Of a stretch of 64,000 nt of DNA, positions 8,792-62,593 are shown piece by piece. Where the stretch lies: positions 62,001 to 126,000 of the forward strand of contig NZ_KE386491.1 of NCBI RefSeq assembly GCF_000427405.1. Direction: 5' to 3'. The position numbers and the translations under genes are program-made. The DNA is from Flectobacillus major DSM 103 (GTDB taxonomy: Bacteria > Bacteroidota > Bacteroidia > Cytophagales > Spirosomataceae). Numbering within the stretch: the stretch's first letter is position 1; each line of letters opens with the position of its first letter. Under the pieces are notes generated by a model, which worked only from the letters and a program-made list of their open reading frames with translations, searched no databases and was not told the DNA's origin.

Positions 8792-10195
8792 ATGAGTAAT
8801 CCAGTAAGTACCTTATTCGACAAAGTGTGGGATTCACACGTTGTTCGCAAAATTGAAGATGGCCCAGATGTATTTTTGATAGACCGTCACTTTATTCACG
8901 AAGTAACTAGCCCAGTGGCTTTTTTGGGTCTTGAAACAAGAGGTATTGGTGTATTGTATCCTGAAAGAACATTTGCTACAGCCGATCACAACACACCAAC
9001 AATCAACCAACATTTGCCTGTTGAGGATGCTCTTTCTGCCAACCAATTGAAAGCATTAGAAACCAACTCGGCCAAATATGGTATTTCACACTGGGGGTTG
9101 GGCGATCCCAAAAATGGTATTGTACACGTAGTTGGCCCTGAAAATGGTATTACCTTGCCAGGTATGACTATCGTTTGTGGTGACTCACATACTTCTACTC
9201 ACGGAGCATTTGGGGCTATTGCTTTTGGTATCGGTACTTCTGAAGTTGAAATGGTACTTTCTTCGCAATGTATCATGCAGCCAAAGCCTAAAAAAATGCG
9301 TATTACCGTAAAAGGTGCATTGGGCAAAGGTGTTACTCCTAAAGACGTAGCTTTATATATTATCTCACAAATTACAGCAAGTGGTGCAACTGGTTATTTT
9401 GTAGAATATGCTGGTGAGGTATTTGAAAATATGACTATGGAAGGTCGTATGACTGTTTGTAACCTTTCTATCGAAATGGGTGCACGTGGTGGTATGATTG
9501 CTCCAGACGAAACTACATTCAATTATTTGCAAGGCCGTGAAAAAGCACCAAAAGGCGACGATTGGGAAAAAGCTTTGGCTTACTGGAAAACTTTGAAAAC
9601 AGACGAAGGTGCTACCTTCGACTACGAGTTGACCTTTGATGCTGCCGATATTGAACCCCAAATTACGTATGGTACAAACCCAGGCTTAGGAACAGGTATT
9701 ACCAAAAATATTCCTGCTGCTACAGACGTAAAAGATGGTGAGGCTTCGTACAAAAAATCTTTGACTTACATGGGATTTGCCGAGAATGAATCTATCATTG
9801 GCAAGCAAGTAGATTATGTATTCTTGGGTAGCTGTACCAATGGCCGTATCGAAGACTTCCGTGCATTTGCTTCTATTGTAAAAGGCCGTAAAAAAGCTGA
9901 TAACATCACCGCTTGGTTGGTACCGGGGTCACATATCGTTGAAGCTCAGATCAAGGAAGAAGGTATCTTAGATATTTTGACCGAAGCAGGATTTTTGTTG
10001 CGTCAGCCAGGTTGCTCGGCATGTTTGGCAATGAACGACGACAAAATCCCAGCCGGTAAATATGCTGTAAGTACTTCAAACCGTAACTTTGAAGGTCGTC
10101 AGGGGCCAGGTTCTCGTACACTTTTGGCATCGCCATTGGTTGCTGCAGCAGCGGCTGTAACAGGCGTAGTTACCGACCCAAGAACCTTGTTATAA
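8792..10195 (+). CDS. leuC: 3-isopropylmalate dehydratase large subunit LeuC
   Basis: A 467-aa aconitase-family subunit that with LeuD isomerises 2-isopropylmalate to 3-isopropylmalate in leucine synthesis. The three [4Fe-4S] ligands are C348 (in GSCTNGR) and C408 and C411 (in GCSACLAM). The substrate-binding segments [14 protein letters not shown] and [20 protein letters not shown] are intact, and the length is normal for bacterial LeuC. LeuD follows after 184 bp, then a LeuA-type synthase and LeuB, all in the same direction, so this begins the leucine gene block. The start ATG at 8792 is the only reasonable one. Confidence 0.97.
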
Positions 10196-47921: not shown

Positions 47922-49274
47922 CTACACCTGATAAATACTCTTCTTAAAATTCAGCCAACCCAATGCACCAAAAAGCAGAATAAAAATCACTAAGGATAAG
48001 TATGAGTGCAAACCTCCACTTTCGTGTGGATTCTTGAAGGTTTCTATGTTGAATTTATTCCATTTTTCGCTGTTTACGGGTACTTCACGAAATATTTTTG
48101 GATAAAAATATAACCTCATTTTTTCGTGAAACTTCCCTGTTTCTTCCAAAAATTGTAAATGATTACTTAGCCCCGATTGTGCTATTTCATTGAGCTGAAT
48201 TTGCGTATGAATCGTAGGAAAAAACTGGGCAATGCTATTGCTGGCTCTATTGCGTTGATTAAGTTTTTCTTTGAAAGCAGTCGCCTGAGTAGCCGCTTCG
48301 TCATCACCAATTTGTTGCATGGCATAGTACCATAGCCAACTAAATTCTTTGTCGGGCAAAGGAAATTGCTTGAACTGTGGATAATGTGCATAAAACCTAT
48401 TCATGGTTTGGGTTTTATCGGTATCCCATTTTTCATGATAGCCTTTGCGTTGCTTGAGGGTGGTGGACAAGGCTTCGGGAACGGGATATTTGTTTACCAA
48501 ATAATTGTTGAGACTGGCTGGCAAAATAATAATCAGTACAATCCAGATTGACAACAAAATAACCGCATTGGCATTAGAACTTTTTTGCAAAGACGCTACC
48601 CAAAAGCATATCCCAAACCAGCATAAAATATACAAAAGGGAAATCCCGACGAAAGAGAAGAAGATACTTTCTAAAGGTATTTTCAGGAAAAAAACAGATA
48701 ATAATAGAATGAAAAACAATACTGCCACGACACCGATAAACCTGATAAAAAAGAGTTGCAATACATATAAAAACAGGTTTTTGCTCTGAATTGCCACAAT
48801 TCGCCAAGTGCCAGATTCTTTTTCTTCTGAAATAATATTATAGGTAAATGCAATGATTATCAATGGAAACAAAAAGATAAGTACAAAGCTAAAGTCGATA
48901 TTTCCGAGCAAAAGATTGGTCGGATTATTCAAATCAGCATCGTACTTTTGGGCTTCTAAGCCTCTGATGGTTAGGCTCTGAATGGAAGGATTGACATCTC
49001 GCTGACCAATCGACAAACCATTCATAGGTAATGTTTCGTTGACGAAGGCAAACTTCAAATAATACAATAATAGCCCTATTTCATCTTGATGATGATGGAC
49101 ATTTCGGGCAGTATACTCTTTTTGGTAAGCAGCTGTTTCTGTAATATTTTGTTCTTGTTTTTCTATAAATTGTTTGCCTACAAAAAGGCTGACGATTCCT
49201 GCGATAAGTAAAAAACTGAGTCCTATTTTTACACTATTCGACCGTATAAAATTCTTGAATGCTAAGACTATCAT
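47922..49274 (-). CDS. ABC-2 type permease with DUF3526 (second copy)
   Basis: A 450-aa membrane protein: one N-terminal helix (KIGLSFLLIAGIVSLFVG), a large periplasmic loop to about residue 120, then five more helices from FSFVLIFLFPLIIIAFTYNI with the EEKESGTWRIVAIQS cytoplasmic turn characteristic of ABC-2/NosY permeases, and a second periplasmic domain (YHEKWDTDKTQTMNRFYAHY). Its last helix ends GALGWLNFKKS. It is the final gene of the ABC ATPase-TonB receptor-permease operon, starting 1 bp after the previous gene's stop. Export of a small molecule or transport of a metal complex is possible, undetermined. Confidence 0.8.
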   Translation of the reverse strand: MIVLAFKNFIRSNSVKIGLSFLLIAGIVSLFVGKQFIEKQEQNITETAAYQKEYTARNVHHHQDEIGLLLYYLKFAFVNETLPMNGLSIGQRDVNPSIQSLTIRGLEAQKYDADLNNPTNLLLGNIDFSFVLIFLFPLIIIAFTYNIISEEKESGTWRIVAIQSKNLFLYVLQLFFIRFIGVVAVLFFILLLSVFFLKIPLESIFFSFVGISLLYILCWFGICFWVASLQKSSNANAVILLSIWIVLIIILPASLNNYLVNKYPVPEALSTTLKQRKGYHEKWDTDKTQTMNRFYAHYPQFKQFPLPDKEFSWLWYYAMQQIGDDEAATQATAFKEKLNQRNRASNSIAQFFPTIHTQIQLNEIAQSGLSNHLQFLEETGKFHEKMRLYFYPKIFREVPVNSEKWNKFNIETFKNPHESGGLHSYLSLVIFILLFGALGWLNFKKSIYQV

Positions 49275-49275
49275 A

Positions 49276-50724
49276 TTAAATTGCTTTTAAGGTTTTAGAC
49301 AGTATTCTGATAAAAAATAATAATAGCCCTATCCAAAAAATAAAGGCAAAAATGGAAATGATTTCATGGCTAAAAACCGTACTTACTTCTGCTTCTTTAT
49401 AGACAAATTCGTGCATTTCTTCCCAATGTTTTTTGTCGATAGCATGAGGTTTTTCACCTACTGCTGGCTTTTTATTACTGATAAATTTTATTTGTAATTC
49501 ATTCATTTTCTGAGCCATTTCGTAGCGATATTGCTCTGCTTGCTCTTGAAAATTGATGTATGAAGCAAAATCAGTACTTGCTAAGGCCATCGATAAGTTT
49601 TTAATCGCCATAAACGGATTCAAAAATGCCATACCTTTAGAAAAACTATTCTGTTTATCATAGATTTTTAGAAGCTCGTCTAAATGATGATTATAAATAT
49701 TAGCACTGATTTTTTCGCCTTCTGCCATCACAAAACCGCTATAATTAAAGGGCAATTTTTGTACTGAATCTACTTGATAAACCGTCAGAAGTGAATCCTT
49801 CAAACTTTTATAATGTGGGTCGTTGGGGTTGTGGCTATCGCCTTCTTTGAGTATGTCATTTTCAATATCGGCATTAAATTGTGCTTTTGAGGGCGTCGAA
49901 TAAAGGTAAGCTCCCAAGGCCTGCGAACCTCTCGGAAGTACAATCGTAAGCATCAACCAAAGCCCAATCAATGAAGTAAGAGCCGTTTTAGAACTTTTAC
50001 TGATGGCAGAAATCAACACAGCGATTACACAAAAAATAACTAAATAGACAAAATAAACCAGTATAATCAAAAGTAAACGAATACTTTCGTCTATTGAAAT
50101 ATTCATATTTTGAAGTAAAGCCCAAAGGAGAATCGTTGCCACGATAATTGGAATAAAGAGTATCATTACTACGCTAATAATTCCAAGACTTTTACCCACA
50201 ATTAGTTCTTTCCAGCTTACTCCTTGGCTCAATAGTATTTTAAGCGTTCCGTTTTCTCGTTCGTTGGCAATACTGCTAAAACCCAAGAAGAAAATTAGCA
50301 ATGGTAAAAGTACTTGTAGCACCATTGCAATACTGATTTCACCAAAACGCAACATTCCAGTTGAAAAACCAGCTTCTGAGAAGTTGACGGTATTTTGTTT
50401 ATGAGCTTCCAGAAAAATCGTATTGCCCAAAAAGCTTTCCATGCCAAAATCAAATACACTTAATGGAGCTTTTGGACGAAATGCAAAATGACCAAAATGT
50501 GCCATTCGGTGTGGATGTTTGTCAGGATTACTCAGCCAATCTTTTCGAGCTTGTTCTTGGTATTTTACTCGTATTTCATTTTGTTTCTGAAAATTTATCC
50601 AACCCGAAAAAGCCGCATAAATCAGTAGTAAACCTATAAAAATCGTCAACAGAAATACAGCCTTATTCCTGAAGGCAGTATTTCTAAAATGCTTGGCGAT
50701 AAGAATTTCTGTATGTGAAAACAT
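49276..50724 (-). CDS. ABC-2 type permease with DUF3526 (first copy)
   Basis: A 482-aa paralogue of the following gene. N-terminal helix (AVFLLTIFIGLLLIYAAFSG), histidine-rich loop (KHPHRMAHFGHFAF), then the ABC-2 core with LIFFLGFSSIANERENGTL and SQGVSWKELIVGKSLGIISV, and a second extracytoplasmic domain before the C-terminal helix. The two DUF3526 permeases probably form a heterodimer driven by the ATPase at 53201-53896. The gene lies 4 bp downstream of the TonB receptor gene, so receptor and permeases are translated from one mRNA. Confidence 0.8.
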   Translation of the reverse strand: MFSHTEILIAKHFRNTAFRNKAVFLLTIFIGLLLIYAAFSGWINFQKQNEIRVKYQEQARKDWLSNPDKHPHRMAHFGHFAFRPKAPLSVFDFGMESFLGNTIFLEAHKQNTVNFSEAGFSTGMLRFGEISIAMVLQVLLPLLIFFLGFSSIANERENGTLKILLSQGVSWKELIVGKSLGIISVVMILFIPIIVATILLWALLQNMNISIDESIRLLLIILVYFVYLVIFCVIAVLISAISKSSKTALTSLIGLWLMLTIVLPRGSQALGAYLYSTPSKAQFNADIENDILKEGDSHNPNDPHYKSLKDSLLTVYQVDSVQKLPFNYSGFVMAEGEKISANIYNHHLDELLKIYDKQNSFSKGMAFLNPFMAIKNLSMALASTDFASYINFQEQAEQYRYEMAQKMNELQIKFISNKKPAVGEKPHAIDKKHWEEMHEFVYKEAEVSTVFSHEIISIFAFIFWIGLLLFFIRILSKTLKAI

Positions 50725-50728
50725 ATTA

Positions 50729-53179
50729 TTAAAATTTGTACGTCAATGTAAGAGTCATATTTCTTGGTGCAGCAGGGAACAAACGCAAATAGTTCTGAGC
50801 TCCCAGCCAATAAGTAGTATCAAAAACATTCCCTGCATTCAAGGCTACTTGCACATTGCTGTTGTTTGGCGTGTAATAAAGTGCTGCATCAAAAGCCGTA
50901 AAAGCAGGTACTTCAAAGGCACGACTAAACCAAGGAATTCTACTGCCTTGGTGCTGAACGCCAAAACCTACACCAAGGTCTTTGAGAGCAGAAGTGTTTT
51001 GGAAATTATAGCGAGTCCAGATATTGAAGCTATTTCTGGGCGTATTTTGCTTTCTTGCACCAATCAACGATTTGTCGTTGTCTTCAACAATCACGGCATC
51101 AATATAACTGTACGAGGCATTGATTTGCCAGTTGGGCAAAATATAGCCTGCAATATCCCACTCAATTCCACGGCTTCTTTCAGCACCACGAGTAACCAAA
51201 AGGTCGGGATTTGTTGGGTCGTTGGCATTCATCAAAATATTTTTCTGATTGATTTCGTAGAATGCCACATTCAATCTTACTCGATTATGAAACAAGTCAG
51301 CTTTAAGTCCTAATTCTTTCAAATCGCTTCTCAGTGGGTCAAATTGACTCCCCGCAGGCAATGAACCCGTTTGTGGCATCAGCGTTACGGTATTCGATTG
51401 TGGTTGAAAACCTTCCAAATAAGTACCATAAACATTGATAGATGTATTGATACTGTACGTTAAACCGACTCTTGGTAACAATGCCGTTTTTTCTACCGTT
51501 AATGAATTATTGGCTTTGTAGTTGGTGATGTCTTTGAACCATTCATTTCTTAAACTCAACAACAACGTAAATTTATTCCACTGTAATTGCTCTTGAATAT
51601 AAATAGCATTGGTAGTGGTAAGTGCTGAAGGCAAAGCCGTGCGAACATTTAAAGTATAATCTTCTACGTTACGAATGGTATAAGTTGGATTTGCCAAGTC
51701 GAAGTGATTGACGTTAGGTTTGGGCAATACCTTTCCACCGACCGTAATTGTCTGATAATTGGCGGCATTGGCTAATACAAACGAGCTTGCCACAGAACCA
51801 TCTTTCAACAAATAACCACGAGCCGCATTTTGTCCGCCACCTTTCAGTTTTTGCCAACTGTTCAAATCGTAACCTATTAATAATTTATGACTGGCTTTTC
51901 CTGTTTTAAAATCAAAATTGAAGTAACTATTGAGGTTATCGATATTCCAATATTGCTGACGCTGAACAAATTGCATAGCTGCCAAACTTGTTACAGGCTG
52001 ATTGCTAATATCTACGGCAAAAGCGTTGGTTGTGCGGTGTTCTTGTAAGTTTTCTGTCCAAGATTGTTTCATGTAAGAAGTATTGAAACCAATATTTTGG
52101 CTAAACTTATGAGCAATATTTCCCATAATGATTACTTCTTTAGATTTGAAAAAATCATTGGAAGCACCCAAATTCAAGCTTGTTGGTGTACTGCTTAAGT
52201 CTGTTTTTCCAGCCGTTGCACCAAAAATTGGCTGACCTCTATCCAGATTTCCCGTCATATTACTAAAAATCAATTCGGCATTAATGGCAGTTTTGTTATT
52301 AGGAATATAGCTGAACGAAGGCGAAACCAATACAGATTTATTCCCAACCAAATCTCGGAAAGAACGGGCTTCCTGATACGCCGCATTCACACGGTACAAC
52401 AAAGTTTTAGCATCGTTTAAAGGCCCCGTAAAATCCAACGTTCCTCTGAAAGTACTAAAACTCCCGACGCTCATACTTACTTCTTTTCTATCAATCGCCA
52501 AAGGTTTTTTCGTCACTAAATTGATACTTCCCCCTGGGTCAACCGATGAAAAAGTGGCACTTGCTGGCCCTTTAATTACTTCTACTCTTTCAATATTGGT
52601 CGTCAATGGTTGTAAGAAATAATATTGACGAGTACGCATTCCGTTGATAATTTGTCCTTCTTCATTCTGACTAATTCCTCTAATCGAATATTGATTATAA
52701 TAACTTGAGGGAATAACACCACTGGCAATTTTTACGGCATCTGCCAAGTAAAAGGCTTGTCGGTCGGCAATAAGTTCTTTGGTAACTGTTGAAATAGCTT
52801 GTGGAATGTCTTTATTCAAAGCCGAAATTCTGGTAGCCGAAAAAGAGTACTCGCTGTTATAATCTTTGGCTACTCTTCCTAATACTTCTACGGTTTGTAA
52901 CTCATTGTTTTCAGGTGTTAAGGCAATGTCCAAAAAAGCTCCGCTGGTTTTTATTTGATAGGTTTTGTAGCCTACCGAAGAAATTTTGAGCATTCCTTTC
53001 CCCGAAATCTCAAAATTTCCCTCCGCATCGCTGACAGCACCTTGTTTTGTATTCAAAAATTGAATACTTGCCCCAATGATTTTTTCGCCCGTAGTGGCAT
53101 CGCTTACTTTGCCTTTGGTATTTTGTGCTTGAAGGTAAATAGAGGTTAATACAGATAAAATGGTAAAAAAGTACTTCAT
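50729..53179 (-). CDS. TonB-dependent siderophore-type receptor
   Basis: An 816-aa outer membrane receptor. Signal peptide (ending SIYLQAQ), a carboxypeptidase-regulatory-like domain (TKGKVSDATTGEKIIGASIQ), a plug (FSATRISALNKDIPQAISTV, IERVEVIKGPASATFSSVDP) and a 22-strand barrel ending APRNMTLTLTYKF. The plug and the GSFSTFRGTLDFTGPL segment are those of the FhuA/FpvA-like siderophore receptor family, so an iron chelate or related metallophore is likely. It sits inside an ABC operon, between the ATPase and the permeases, an unusual arrangement for an uptake receptor. Confidence 0.9.
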   Translation of the reverse strand: MKYFFTILSVLTSIYLQAQNTKGKVSDATTGEKIIGASIQFLNTKQGAVSDAEGNFEISGKGMLKISSVGYKTYQIKTSGAFLDIALTPENNELQTVEVLGRVAKDYNSEYSFSATRISALNKDIPQAISTVTKELIADRQAFYLADAVKIASGVIPSSYYNQYSIRGISQNEEGQIINGMRTRQYYFLQPLTTNIERVEVIKGPASATFSSVDPGGSINLVTKKPLAIDRKEVSMSVGSFSTFRGTLDFTGPLNDAKTLLYRVNAAYQEARSFRDLVGNKSVLVSPSFSYIPNNKTAINAELIFSNMTGNLDRGQPIFGATAGKTDLSSTPTSLNLGASNDFFKSKEVIIMGNIAHKFSQNIGFNTSYMKQSWTENLQEHRTTNAFAVDISNQPVTSLAAMQFVQRQQYWNIDNLNSYFNFDFKTGKASHKLLIGYDLNSWQKLKGGGQNAARGYLLKDGSVASSFVLANAANYQTITVGGKVLPKPNVNHFDLANPTYTIRNVEDYTLNVRTALPSALTTTNAIYIQEQLQWNKFTLLLSLRNEWFKDITNYKANNSLTVEKTALLPRVGLTYSINTSINVYGTYLEGFQPQSNTVTLMPQTGSLPAGSQFDPLRSDLKELGLKADLFHNRVRLNVAFYEINQKNILMNANDPTNPDLLVTRGAERSRGIEWDIAGYILPNWQINASYSYIDAVIVEDNDKSLIGARKQNTPRNSFNIWTRYNFQNTSALKDLGVGFGVQHQGSRIPWFSRAFEVPAFTAFDAALYYTPNNSNVQVALNAGNVFDTTYWLGAQNYLRLFPAAPRNMTLTLTYKF

Positions 53180-53200: not shown

Positions 53201-53896
53201 TTATACCGTTTGTAAATACAATTGTTCTAATTCGTTGGCCGAAATATCTTTGGCATCAATTACCGAAACCAAGTTGCCTTGTTTCATAATACCGATGCGA
53301 TGAGCCACTTCTTTGGCACGAAAAATATCATGTGTTGCCATCAGAATTGCCGTTCCGTTGGCTGAAAGTTCTTTCAAGATTTCCGAAAATTCATTAGAAG
53401 CTTTTGGGTCTAAGCCAGAAGTAGGTTCATCCAATAGCAAGGCTTTGGCATTTTTGGCGATGGCTATGGCAATGCCTACTTTTTGTCGCATTCCTTTTGA
53501 ATAACCACCAAGTGCCTGATGATGAGCCGTTTCTTGAAGTCCAGCTTTGCTTAAAAAAGCACTTAATTCATGGGTTGAATAAGTAAACCCTGCCAATGCA
53601 CTAAAAAAAGCAAGGTTTTCGATACCTGTAAGATTGGGATAGAGCATCACCGTTTCAGGAATGTAAGCCAAGTGTTTTTTGGTTTCGAGGGCATTTTCTA
53701 CTACCGAAATACCATTGATAGTTACTGTACCCTCGCTGGGTTCAATAAAGCCCAAAAACAAATTGATGGTAGTAGTTTTGCCAGCTCCGTTCTGTCCCAA
53801 CAAGGCAAAGATTTCACCTGATTGTATATGCAAGTCCAAGTGATTGAGGGCAGTATGATTCCCGTATTTTTTGGTAAGGTTGTTAGCTGTTAGCAT
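53201..53896 (-). CDS. ABC transporter ATP-binding protein (NosF/CcmA-like)
   Basis: A 231-aa ATPase from the ATG at 53896; longer starts would enter the promoter palindrome. Walker A GQNGAGKTTT, Q-loop ETVMLYPNLTGIEN, signature GGYSKGMRQKVG and Walker B ALLLDEPTSGLDP are intact, and MATHDIFRAKEVAHRIG carries the switch His. The chain is of the short type that serves ABC-2 permeases. It begins the operon and presumably energises the two DUF3526 permeases encoded downstream. Its promoter lies in two overlapping palindromes. Confidence 0.93.
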   Translation of the reverse strand: MLTANNLTKKYGNHTALNHLDLHIQSGEIFALLGQNGAGKTTTINLFLGFIEPSEGTVTINGISVVENALETKKHLAYIPETVMLYPNLTGIENLAFFSALAGFTYSTHELSAFLSKAGLQETAHHQALGGYSKGMRQKVGIAIAIAKNAKALLLDEPTSGLDPKASNEFSEILKELSANGTAILMATHDIFRAKEVAHRIGIMKQGNLVSVIDAKDISANELEQLYLQTV

Positions 53897-53905
53897 GTGG
53901 ATGTG

Positions 53906-53983
53906 TTTGTATATTTGCAATATTGTTGCAAATATACAAACACCAAAGCCTTTTTGCAATAATATTGCAAAAAGGCTTTGGTG
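53906..53983 (-). promoter_or_regulatory. promoter with two palindromes, ABC/TonB operon
   Basis: Palindrome A is 53906-53920 / 53926-53940 (15-bp perfect arms, core TTTGCAA-N5-TTGCAAA). Palindrome B is 53941-53961 / 53963-53983 (21-bp perfect arms, 1-nt centre at 53962, core TTGCAATA/TATTGCAA). On the minus strand TTG (53957-53959), 20 nt, TATATTTG (53929-53936) is a full Bacteroidota promoter. B overlaps the -33 box and A overlaps the -7 box, as expected of a repressor site. The centres are 39 bp apart, as in the copy at 54774-54840. B could also act as a terminator for the upstream gene. Confidence 0.75.
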
Positions 53984-54039
53984 TCACGAATAAAAAAAAT
54001 GGTATTGTGTGAAAATCAATGCTCGGGGGAGTTGTAGCA

Positions 54040-54726
54040 TTATAATCGTTCAAAAGGAATATCTAATAGCTCGAACGTAGTGTTGCTCACATAATTAAAA
54101 TGCCACCATTCCATCGGGTCAACTTTGAAGCCGTGTTTTTTCATGGCAGATTTCAATAATTCTCGATTTTTGATAACCTCTTGGGGTAGTTTCATAAACT
54201 CAGGATGAGCCGCATATACCAAGGCATCAAAAGGTGTTGGCATTTTTAACTCCTTTTTGGTTTTGAGGTTAATCAAAGTCAAATCAAGAGCAATACCTCG
54301 ATTGTGTTTACTTCCCTGCCACGGCAAACCCATATAAAGTGTATCTGGTAGTATTTCAAACATCTGACAAGTAACCGAATAAGGGCGATAAGCATCATAA
54401 ATTTTAAGGCTAAAGCCTTGGGCATTTAACTCTTTCTGAACAGCTCCCAAAGCTTTTGCTACAGGCAATCTTACCAATGCCGCTGGTTTTTTGTAAAGTT
54501 GGGTATAAAAAACGTTCTGAGCAGTGGCGTATTTGATGTCCAAAGCAATATTGGGTACATAATCTTTTATTGGAACAAGTGCTTTGTTGGGGTCTTCTCG
54601 GATAGTTTCTTTTAGTTTTTGGAGGTCTGAAATGATTGTTAATCCGTATTGATTAGGTATCTGGGCAATTCCAAGATTCAAAGCGGATAAAATAATGACG
54701 AAGATTCTGACAACGTTTTTACACAT
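54040..54726 (-). CDS. D-alanyl-D-alanine dipeptidase (VanX/DdpX family), exported
   Basis: A 228-aa peptidase of family M15D. An N-terminal hydrophobic stretch (IFVIILSALNLGIA) looks like a signal peptide. The zinc ligands are H141 and D148 in GSKHNRGIALDLT, and H209 in EWWHF, with catalytic E207; R114 in YDAYRPY stabilises the substrate. VanX-type enzymes cut D-Ala-D-Ala released from peptidoglycan, so the cell can reuse D-Ala or avoid feeding it into precursors. There are no vanA or vanH homologues nearby, so this is not a glycopeptide-resistance cluster. Its promoter is a near copy of that of the neighbouring ABC/TonB operon. Confidence 0.9.
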   Translation of the reverse strand: MCKNVVRIFVIILSALNLGIAQIPNQYGLTIISDLQKLKETIREDPNKALVPIKDYVPNIALDIKYATAQNVFYTQLYKKPAALVRLPVAKALGAVQKELNAQGFSLKIYDAYRPYSVTCQMFEILPDTLYMGLPWQGSKHNRGIALDLTLINLKTKKELKMPTPFDALVYAAHPEFMKLPQEVIKNRELLKSAMKKHGFKVDPMEWWHFNYVSNTTFELLDIPFERL

Positions 54727-54773
54727 AAAAGAATATTATTATGGTATCTAGGGGTGGAGGATAGATATGTGTG

Positions 54774-54840
54774 CATTTGCAATAGTGTTGCAAATGTATA
54801 AAACATAAAGCCATTTTGCAATAATATAACCCAAAAAGCT
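54774..54840 (-). promoter_or_regulatory. promoter with two palindromes, dipeptidase gene
   Basis: CATTTGCAA-N5-TTGCAAATG (54774-54796) is palindrome A-prime; a degenerate palindrome B-prime follows, centred at 54824. On the minus strand TTG (54819-54821), 20 nt, TACATTTG (54791-54798) is a promoter. From TATTATTGC to GCAAAT it aligns with the promoter at 53906-53983 with about ten differences in 56 positions (hand count). The predicted leader is about 58 nt. Confidence 0.7.
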
Positions 54841-61870: not shown

Positions 61871-62593
61871 ATGAATCAGCCAAAAGAATTAATAATACAA
61901 AGCGGAACTGTTTTGGAAAACAGACAGATTGCCGCACATACCTTTCACTTAAAAATTCAAAGCGATGATTTTGCAGATATGCAGTGTGTCGGTGGGTTTA
62001 CGGTAGATATTTTTTTAGGAAATCCTTACGAAAACGCTAATTGCGAAAACCGAAAATACTCTTTTTGGAACTACGAACCCGTGTATCACATCGTTGATTT
62101 GGCTATTTGTACATTCTCAAATGGAAAAGGAGCTAAATGGATACAAAAATTGCAGCAGGGCAACCGTATTTTCTTCAAACCACCCAAAGGAAAATTACTA
62201 GCAGACAACAGTGCCGAAAATTACCTACTGATTGGTGACATCACGTCTTTATCTCATTTGTACGAAATACACAGAAACCTTGCCGTAAGTAAAAATATTT
62301 TTAGTTTTATTTATGCAGAACAAGAAGCTGATTTTTTTCCAGACATTGATAACAGCTTCCCATTGCATCATTATATCATTAGCCCAACGCCGACAGATAA
62401 GGTAGTGAATAAAATCGTTAGCCTTTTGCCAGCACAGCTTGACAACACTATTGCTTATGTTTTTGGGCATCCAGAGGTATGTATCGCCTTGCACCATTAC
62501 TTAAAGCACAACAAAAATATGCCAACCCAGTATCTGCGAACAAAACCATTTTGGAAAGCAGAAAAGAATGAGTCGGCCAGTGCTATATGCTGA
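61871..62593 (+). CDS. siderophore-interacting FAD-binding reductase
   Basis: A 240-aa flavoprotein of the siderophore-interacting/ferric-reductase-like superfamily. The FAD-binding barrel includes NRKYSFWNYEPVYHIVDLAI, with the R-x-Y-S/T motif, and KGAKWIQKLQQGNRIFFKPP. The second half is an NAD(P)-binding-like domain (YLLIGDITSLSHLYEIHRNL; NTIAYVFGHPEVCIALHHYL). Members release iron from internalised siderophores by reduction; a general reductase role is also possible. No uptake receptor is adjacent; its promoter is probably controlled by the upstream Crp/Fnr protein. Confidence 0.8.
   Translation: MNQPKELIIQSGTVLENRQIAAHTFHLKIQSDDFADMQCVGGFTVDIFLGNPYENANCENRKYSFWNYEPVYHIVDLAICTFSNGKGAKWIQKLQQGNRIFFKPPKGKLLADNSAENYLLIGDITSLSHLYEIHRNLAVSKNIFSFIYAEQEADFFPDIDNSFPLHHYIISPTPTDKVVNKIVSLLPAQLDNTIAYVFGHPEVCIALHHYLKHNKNMPTQYLRTKPFWKAEKNESASAIC

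Follow-up and report, generated by a model that had tools for sequence, protein, structure and literature searches.

The window analysed here, a stretch of 64,000 nucleotides from Flectobacillus major DSM 103 (contig NZ_KE386491.1, forward-strand positions 62,001 to 126,000), carries on its minus strand the genes of an ABC transporter and a TonB-dependent receptor next to that of a VanX-like dipeptidase. The features of interest are as follows.

47922-49274, minus strand: permB, ABC-2 permease with DUF3526 (PF12040, 3.9e-26)
49276-50724, minus strand: permA, ABC-2 permease with DUF3526 (PF12040, 2.1e-30; PF12679)
50729-53179, minus strand: TonB-dependent siderophore-type receptor, 816 aa (TIGR01783, 282.5 bits, above the cut-off of 223.5)
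53201-53896, minus strand: ABC transporter ATPase, 231 aa from the ATG (PF00005); orthologues align from the same start
53903-53943: palindrome A1 (core 53914-53932), perfect, 18-bp arms; proposed operator of the ABC/TonB operon
53929-53959, minus strand: putative promoter of the ABC/TonB operon, TTG-N20-TATATTTG, its final TTTG common to box A1
53940-53984: palindrome B1 (core 53953-53971), perfect, 20-bp arms; second proposed operator, over the -33 region
54040-54726, minus strand: M15 D-Ala-D-Ala dipeptidase (VanX/DdpX-type), 228 aa (PF01427, 1.1e-26, 94.3 bits, above the cut-off of 27)
54774-54796: palindrome A2 (core 54776-54794), 9-bp arms; proposed operator of the dipeptidase gene
54791-54821, minus strand: putative promoter of the dipeptidase gene, TTG-N20-TACATTTG
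54815-54821: B2, a lone half-site TTTGCAA at the position of B, its facing arm lost

Near-duplicate promoters with a rare palindrome

Bacteroidota promoters have a -33/-7 consensus in which the -7 element reads TAnnTTTG. Both TTG-N20 promoter elements announced by the original prediction are present on the minus strand, 862 bp apart, one before the ABC/TonB operon and the other before the dipeptidase gene, and their positions suggest that each drives the unit adjoining it. They are near-duplicates, as had been proposed, with 60 of 85 aligned bases identical; over 70 bases they have 53 in common, compared with 38 for the next best place on the same strand of the window. Taken alone, the TTG-N20-TAnnTTTG pattern is hardly rare: both strands of the window together hold 11 matches.

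The core of the box, TTTGCAA-N5-TTGCAAA, was found with zero mismatches at A1, B1 and A2 in a pattern search of the window, so that palindrome A is indeed exact at both promoters; A1 covers the -7 element and the start region of the ABC/TonB promoter. Palindrome B had also been predicted for both, and here the two sites differ: B1 is perfect, while the dipeptidase promoter has the half-site only, faced by the sequence TAACCCA, and we rejected B2 as a full palindrome since the arm there is just 1 bp long. The predicted A-to-B distance of 39 bp is likewise exact for A1-B1, but for A2 it is measured to a lone half-site. B1 was also rejected as an operator only, since downstream of the dipeptidase gene it forms a strong terminator-like hairpin with a 20-bp stem (z = -7.1 for the RNA fold); both roles are possible. 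A1 (41 bp) and B1 (45 bp), both perfect palindromes, have 4 bp in common. As TATATTTG is present on both strands of A1, transcription in the opposite direction is possible.

The 6.22-Mb genome holds four copies of the exact palindrome, three of them at these promoters, and one match to the pattern read backwards. With up to three mismatches allowed, matches in the window are not in excess (19, the mean being 14.7, and 15 of 100 shuffles reaching as many); only near-exact sites are therefore meaningful, and weak sites were never used alone. The fourth exact palindrome lies in an intergenic region with three tandem boxes, the exact one and two imperfect ones; on one side is a MerC gene with a COG0523 GTPase gene behind it, on the other a divergent gene for a 183-aa lipoprotein. 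Two tandem boxes also precede a second MerC gene. Among the matches listed, which include some of the two-mismatch sites, these are the further non-coding near-exact boxes of the genome. The GTPase reaches 562.9 bits (E 3.3e-169) against the NCBIfam ZigA model NF038288, with the next family at 176.7 bits; since this is 37 bits short of the cut-off of 600, we call it ZigA-like only.

Several smaller observations concern the boxes and their neighbours. One-mismatch sites in coding regions (L107, L108, L114 and L115) were treated as chance, and the one at L110 is intergenic. A box-like site between the genes of a 138-aa Fur protein and a cation diffusion facilitator (CDF exporter) (L022 1374-1392; G000:C6:287826-287844) could be due to chance or could serve the control of zinc export. 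The family of lipoproteins of about 183 aa (L005 7841-8392; L053-L062), the commonest box neighbour in the 30 box-selected loci described below, matches no Pfam or NCBIfam model and is a candidate new zinc-starvation protein. Directly behind an exact box in L082, L098, L100 and L102 is the gene of a small protein (about 153 aa) that is probably secreted, and a protein resembling it adjoins a LolD/FtsX-like ABC pair at L005 2111-4585. The idea that the 159-aa protein beside the LolD/FtsX-like pair is a Zrg-type zinc transporter was dropped when no Pfam or NCBIfam family matched it. No znuABC or ZIP gene was seen beside the boxes among the neighbours inspected in this general survey.

Conservation of the box in the family

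A more specific, 19-bp form of the box, TTTGCAAYANNRTTGCAAA, is present in 86 of the 150 family genomes, and its reversed-pattern control in none of the 150. When 30 loci were selected by the exact box rather than by gene (11 of them from one genus), genes of a small recurring set stood beside the box in 28, a number that rests partly on queries from those same loci and becomes 27 without self-hits and 25 with queries from the window's own genome only. These neighbours were the lipoprotein (13 loci), MerC (9), a membrane protein family that we label HGCC-type (5), the GTPase (4) and the TonB receptor (2); the two loci outside the set were L077 and L078.

The operon itself was followed through permA, which has a match in 54 of the 150 family genomes. 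Leaving out ten weakly matching genomes gave 46 loci from 44 genomes, to which four loci from outside the family were added; the resulting 50 operon loci include the window itself, and G032 and G065 contribute two each. In the 8 kb upstream of permA, at up to two mismatches, a box was found in 45 of the 50, or in 45 of the 47 assessable ones whose upstream sequence is 5 kb or longer (that of L150, L164 and L173 is shorter), some of these boxes possibly belonging to a neighbouring unit, as at L163, where the distance is 6 kb. By comparison, 60 shuffled half-sites hit 1.3 of the 50 loci on average and 6 at most, with 1.4 boxes on average where the real one gave 81. The two assessable loci with no upstream box at this threshold are L156 and L169, the latter with degenerate copies. 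Absence of the palindromes from orthologous promoters, which the original prediction had named as grounds for abandoning it, is thus not what was found. The orthologous receptor is present in 36 of the 50 loci and the GTPase in 17, and in many genomes the box precedes genes of ZigA-like GTPases, MerC proteins and TonB receptors, placing zinc-homeostasis-type genes, as judged by homology, behind a common operator. Three GTPase loci from outside the family (L247-L249) had no box at up to three mismatches, and a phylum-wide Zur box is not supported by them.

The overlap between box and promoter also recurs. On 62 of the 170 strand-sides of 85 distinct boxes, a TA stands exactly four bases before TTTGCAA, compared with 8-18 at 13 other offsets, an enrichment which indicates that the box often begins with the last four bases of TAnnTTTG. 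A second box (at most three mismatches) lies within 100 bp of 46 of the 85 distinct boxes (mean 2.0 and maximum 23 of 85 for 40 shuffled half-sites), and 27 of the 60 neighbour boxes counted are 37-41 bp away, as in A1-B1. At the orthologous operon G062 has the double-box layout, as does G036, where the second box is imperfect; the two boxes are 38 bp apart.

The dipeptidase and its link to the operon

By inspection, the N-terminus of the dipeptidase resembles a signal peptide. The protein scores 131 bits against NF007557 (PRK10178; cut-off 176) and 72.2 bits against the VanX equivalog NF033115 (cut-off 320), and is thus not VanX proper. The genome encodes a second M15 enzyme as well (C6:3229456-3230016). 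M15/VanX-type dipeptidases have a catalytic E and R. The residues H141, D148, H209, E206 and R114 are invariant in eight aligned dipeptidase sequences, and the H-D and E-H stretches of the protein align to those of VanX (PDB 1r44). The zinc ligands of M15 enzymes are described as H, D and H (PMC7812711). The recycling of D-Ala-D-Ala that had been ascribed to the enzyme was an assumption, for which we found no support.

In a scan of species genomes for the dipeptidase, limited to the best 80 of 559 loci, nine of the 12 fetched loci with at least 57% identity adjoin the operon (10 of 13 with the window): two from Lacihabitans, three from the window's genus, two from Algoriphagus, one from Flavihumibacter and one from a MAG. 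The three unlinked ones are that of Spirosoma oryzae, with neither box nor operon beside it, and two fragmentary records. Among the same best 80, none of the 68 M15 homologues below 50% identity has TonB, permA or permB beside it, and nine of the 68 have a distant ABC ATPase match only (25-33% identity). In three genomes of the window's genus, the dipeptidase gene closes a boxed cluster in the order TonB-permA-permB-ABC-dipeptidase, and in Lacihabitans soyangensis the order is MerC-GTPase-TonB-permA-permB-ABC-dipeptidase. Flavihumibacter fluminis has an exact box, TATATTTGCAATAATGTTGCAAA (L174 9911-9929), at the start of the dipeptidase gene, overlapping the likely ATG at 9920, and the ABC, TonB, permease and GTPase genes follow.

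Most operon-bearing loci are without a dipeptidase gene: it is found in 10 of the 50, one of these a remnant; counting G083, which has its copy immediately outside L165, at least 11 have a dipeptidase or a remnant. Broken or partial copies lie near the operon or an intact copy at G074:C38 49231-49673 (L145), L083 7142-7553 and L089, suggesting that the gene has been both gained and lost. The operon genes of the window are 92-97% identical to those of G036, a genome of a different genus without this dipeptidase, while the permA orthologues in the window's own genus are only 47-48% identical to the window's permA, and from these identities, rather than from a tree, the operon has likely been transferred horizontally. 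The dipeptidase, on the other hand, has 80-82% identity to the Lacihabitans enzymes, and 65-67% to the ones from its own genus. To judge by these sequences, the operon and the dipeptidase seem to have different recent histories, yet they sit under copies of one promoter.

A candidate zinc-starvation regulon

That one regulator, probably a metal-responsive one, controls both units had been part of the original prediction, and is now made probable by the conservation of the box, its position before ZigA-like GTPase and MerC genes, and the presence of the dipeptidase gene in the same cluster in other genomes. We consider it highly likely, on the evidence of sequence comparison, that both promoters belong to a zinc-starvation (Zur-type) regulon in which a Fur-family repressor acts at the box and the operon and the dipeptidase gene are derepressed together. 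The identity of the repressor, the metal, the direction of control and the substrate of the enzyme are what we infer here; zinc was assigned because of the ZigA-like GTPase and the make-up of the regulon.

The best candidate for the repressor is a 144-aa Fur-family protein (G000:C6:3519587-3520018) with a match in all 150 family genomes, in 149 at E 1e-47 or better and in G143 at 8e-12. Six box-bearing genomes (G001, G036, G037, G053, G062 and G066) have a single match to it each, and the 138-aa Fur protein (L022) is disfavoured as the regulator since in these six the only match to this type of Fur protein is the orthologue of the 144-aa one. In the PDB, the 144-aa protein is closest to FurB of M. 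tuberculosis, annotated as a 'zinc uptake regulation protein' (E 2.3e-6), with PerR close behind (5.3e-6); it scores 31.2 bits with the NCBIfam Zur model, far under the cut-off of 167, and slightly higher, 33 bits (cut-off 220), with that of the Bacillus iron Fur. The 3.3-kb locus of its gene has no box at up to three mismatches. Some boxed clusters contain or adjoin additional Fur-family genes (L127 4207-4587, L162 6874-7254, L149 12107-12487 and L137 14669-15091); their products, about 29-33% identical to the 144-aa protein, are possibly operon-specific regulators.

In the model that we propose, the Fur-family repressor, most likely the 144-aa protein, would bind the 19-bp box when zinc is sufficient. 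As the box opens with the TTTG that closes the -7 element TAnnTTTG, the bound repressor would cover the -7/start region, and the second box, where present mostly 37-41 bp away, would cover the -33 region. Upon a fall in zinc the repressor would leave, and the receptor/ABC operon and the dipeptidase, which is probably periplasmic, would be made together, along with the MerC proteins, the ZigA-like zinc-chaperone GTPase and the lipoprotein of the regulon. The dipeptidase might then either supply an M15 cell-wall activity at low zinc, like ZrlA of Acinetobacter, or serve uptake directly. As a broader and tentative proposal, which we hold to be less likely than not, the whole may form an undescribed Bacteroidota system for the acquisition of zinc or a zinc carrier, in which a siderophore-type TonB receptor, paired DUF3526 ABC-2 permeases with one ATPase, MerC, a ZigA-like chaperone and a dedicated periplasmic VanX-type dipeptidase, processing the imported ligand or freeing zinc at the cell wall, are all controlled by a Zur box that is specific to the family and merges with the -7 element.

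Of the other readings, the one that survives best is compatible with zinc control and makes the dipeptidase a working part of uptake, cleaving a peptide-like metal carrier in the periplasm or releasing metal, rather than an enzyme acting on the cell wall. It would account for the tight linkage to one operon type across several Bacteroidota groups in three gene orders (dipeptidase last, first or separate), for the lack of TonB receptor and permease genes next to the 68 M15 homologues of lower identity (within the best 80 of 559 loci), and for copies of one promoter being shared by a dipeptidase nearest to that of Lacihabitans (80-82%) and an operon nearest to that of G036 (92-97%). We nevertheless hold it to be less likely than not, since the receptor is found in 36 of the 50 operon loci and the dipeptidase in only 10, which means that the transporter can do without the enzyme; moreover, the VanX-type residues are all kept, and no metallophore synthesis gene was recognised among the ORFs of the window at 46-60 kb.

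The box could also be that of another Fur-family or metal regulator, responding to iron, manganese or nickel, with the dipeptidase carried along in an iron-controlled siderophore receptor operon. The receptor does fall in the siderophore subfamily TIGR01783, the 144-aa protein scores as high with the iron Fur as with the Zur models and has PerR nearly as close in the PDB, and the genome encodes two longer Fur/PerR-type proteins. We regard this as improbable because the recurrent companions of the box are the ZigA-like zinc-chaperone GTPase, present in 17 of the 50 operon loci, and MerC; in addition, no box was found in the 3.4-kb locus of either longer Fur gene, although an absence of autoregulation proves little. 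A locus for defence against glycopeptide or peptide antibiotics, composed of a VanX-like dipeptidase and a drug-export-like ABC transporter, is brought to mind by the resemblance of the enzyme to VanX and by the best NCBIfam match of the ATPase, a DrrA-like exporter (177.7 bits, cut-off 312), but it is very improbable given that the operon includes a TonB receptor, that GTPase and MerC genes share its box, and that no VanA/VanH-type gene was present among the nine window proteins scanned. Lastly, that the palindromes are due to chance or are mere terminator hairpins without a regulatory role, as the strong terminator-like hairpin of B1 after the dipeptidase gene and the chance-level number of weak matches in the window might suggest, is contradicted by near-exact boxes at orthologous promoters, fused to TAnnTTTG and far in excess of shuffled controls.

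The zinc-starvation reading thus provides a candidate Zur box and regulon for this Bacteroidota family, the operator having four bases in common with the -7 element. It also proposes zinc starvation as the likely setting for an ABC/TonB system with DUF3526 permeases, and gives a dipeptidase that had no explanation a place in that system which can be tested. In the open-licence literature we found no earlier report of a Bacteroidota Zur box, no paper on DUF3526 with TonB, and no earlier report of an M15 dipeptidase with Zur inside a TonB/DUF3526-ABC cluster, the dipeptidase and Zur together leading to a paper on NtrC in Burkholderia; the searched text of one review (PMC6103462) has no match for the terms Bacteroid, Flavobacteri or TTGCAA. 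Zinc control in Riemerella has been studied through ZntR (PMC11960050). COG0523 GTPases have been described downstream of Zur boxes, and some boxed paralogues of zinc enzymes, such as AmiA, keep their zinc residues (Haas et al., 2009; PMC2770081); those sites are from Bacilli, proteobacteria and cyanobacteria, and the terms 'Bacteroid' and 'Flavobacteri' are absent from the main text. The present regulon also resembles that of Caulobacter crescentus, where Zur represses the TonB receptors ZnuK/L/M for zinc scavenging, but the abstract of that study mentions neither a DUF3526 ABC transporter nor an M15 dipeptidase (PMC4176598).

The closest parallels concern the dipeptidase. ShyB of V. cholerae belongs to the M23 family, and A1S_3411 (yjiA) of A. 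baumannii is a gene that we take to be zigA. ShyB is a cell-wall peptidase and is induced by zinc starvation through a Zur box, the kind of control that we propose for the dipeptidase, but it is described as a D,D-endopeptidase related to ShyA/ShyC and is not an M15 enzyme (PMC6381278). A. baumannii ZrlA is nearer: as published, it is an M15 peptidase with D-Ala-D-Ala carboxypeptidase activity, VanX-like zinc ligands and a palindromic Zur box in its promoter, and its gene lies beside the GTPase gene A1S_3411 (PMC7812711). It differs in belonging to another phylum, in having as neighbours this GTPase and an aromatic amino acid transporter rather than a TonB receptor and a DUF3526 ABC transporter, and, as far as its published description allows the parallel to be drawn, in having QXH where the dipeptidase of the window has EWWH (PMC7812711). 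The statement in the original prediction that such a link was not described is thus too broad, since an M15 peptidase with a Zur box was already published (PMC7812711), and holds for a dipeptidase within a TonB/DUF3526-ABC cluster, which we did not find in the literature; what appears to be new is the building of the dipeptidase into this cluster, together with the candidate Zur box of this Bacteroidota family. Taken with ZrlA of Acinetobacter and ShyB of Vibrio, the putative regulon suggests by analogy that zinc control of a cell-wall-type peptidase may have arisen more than once.
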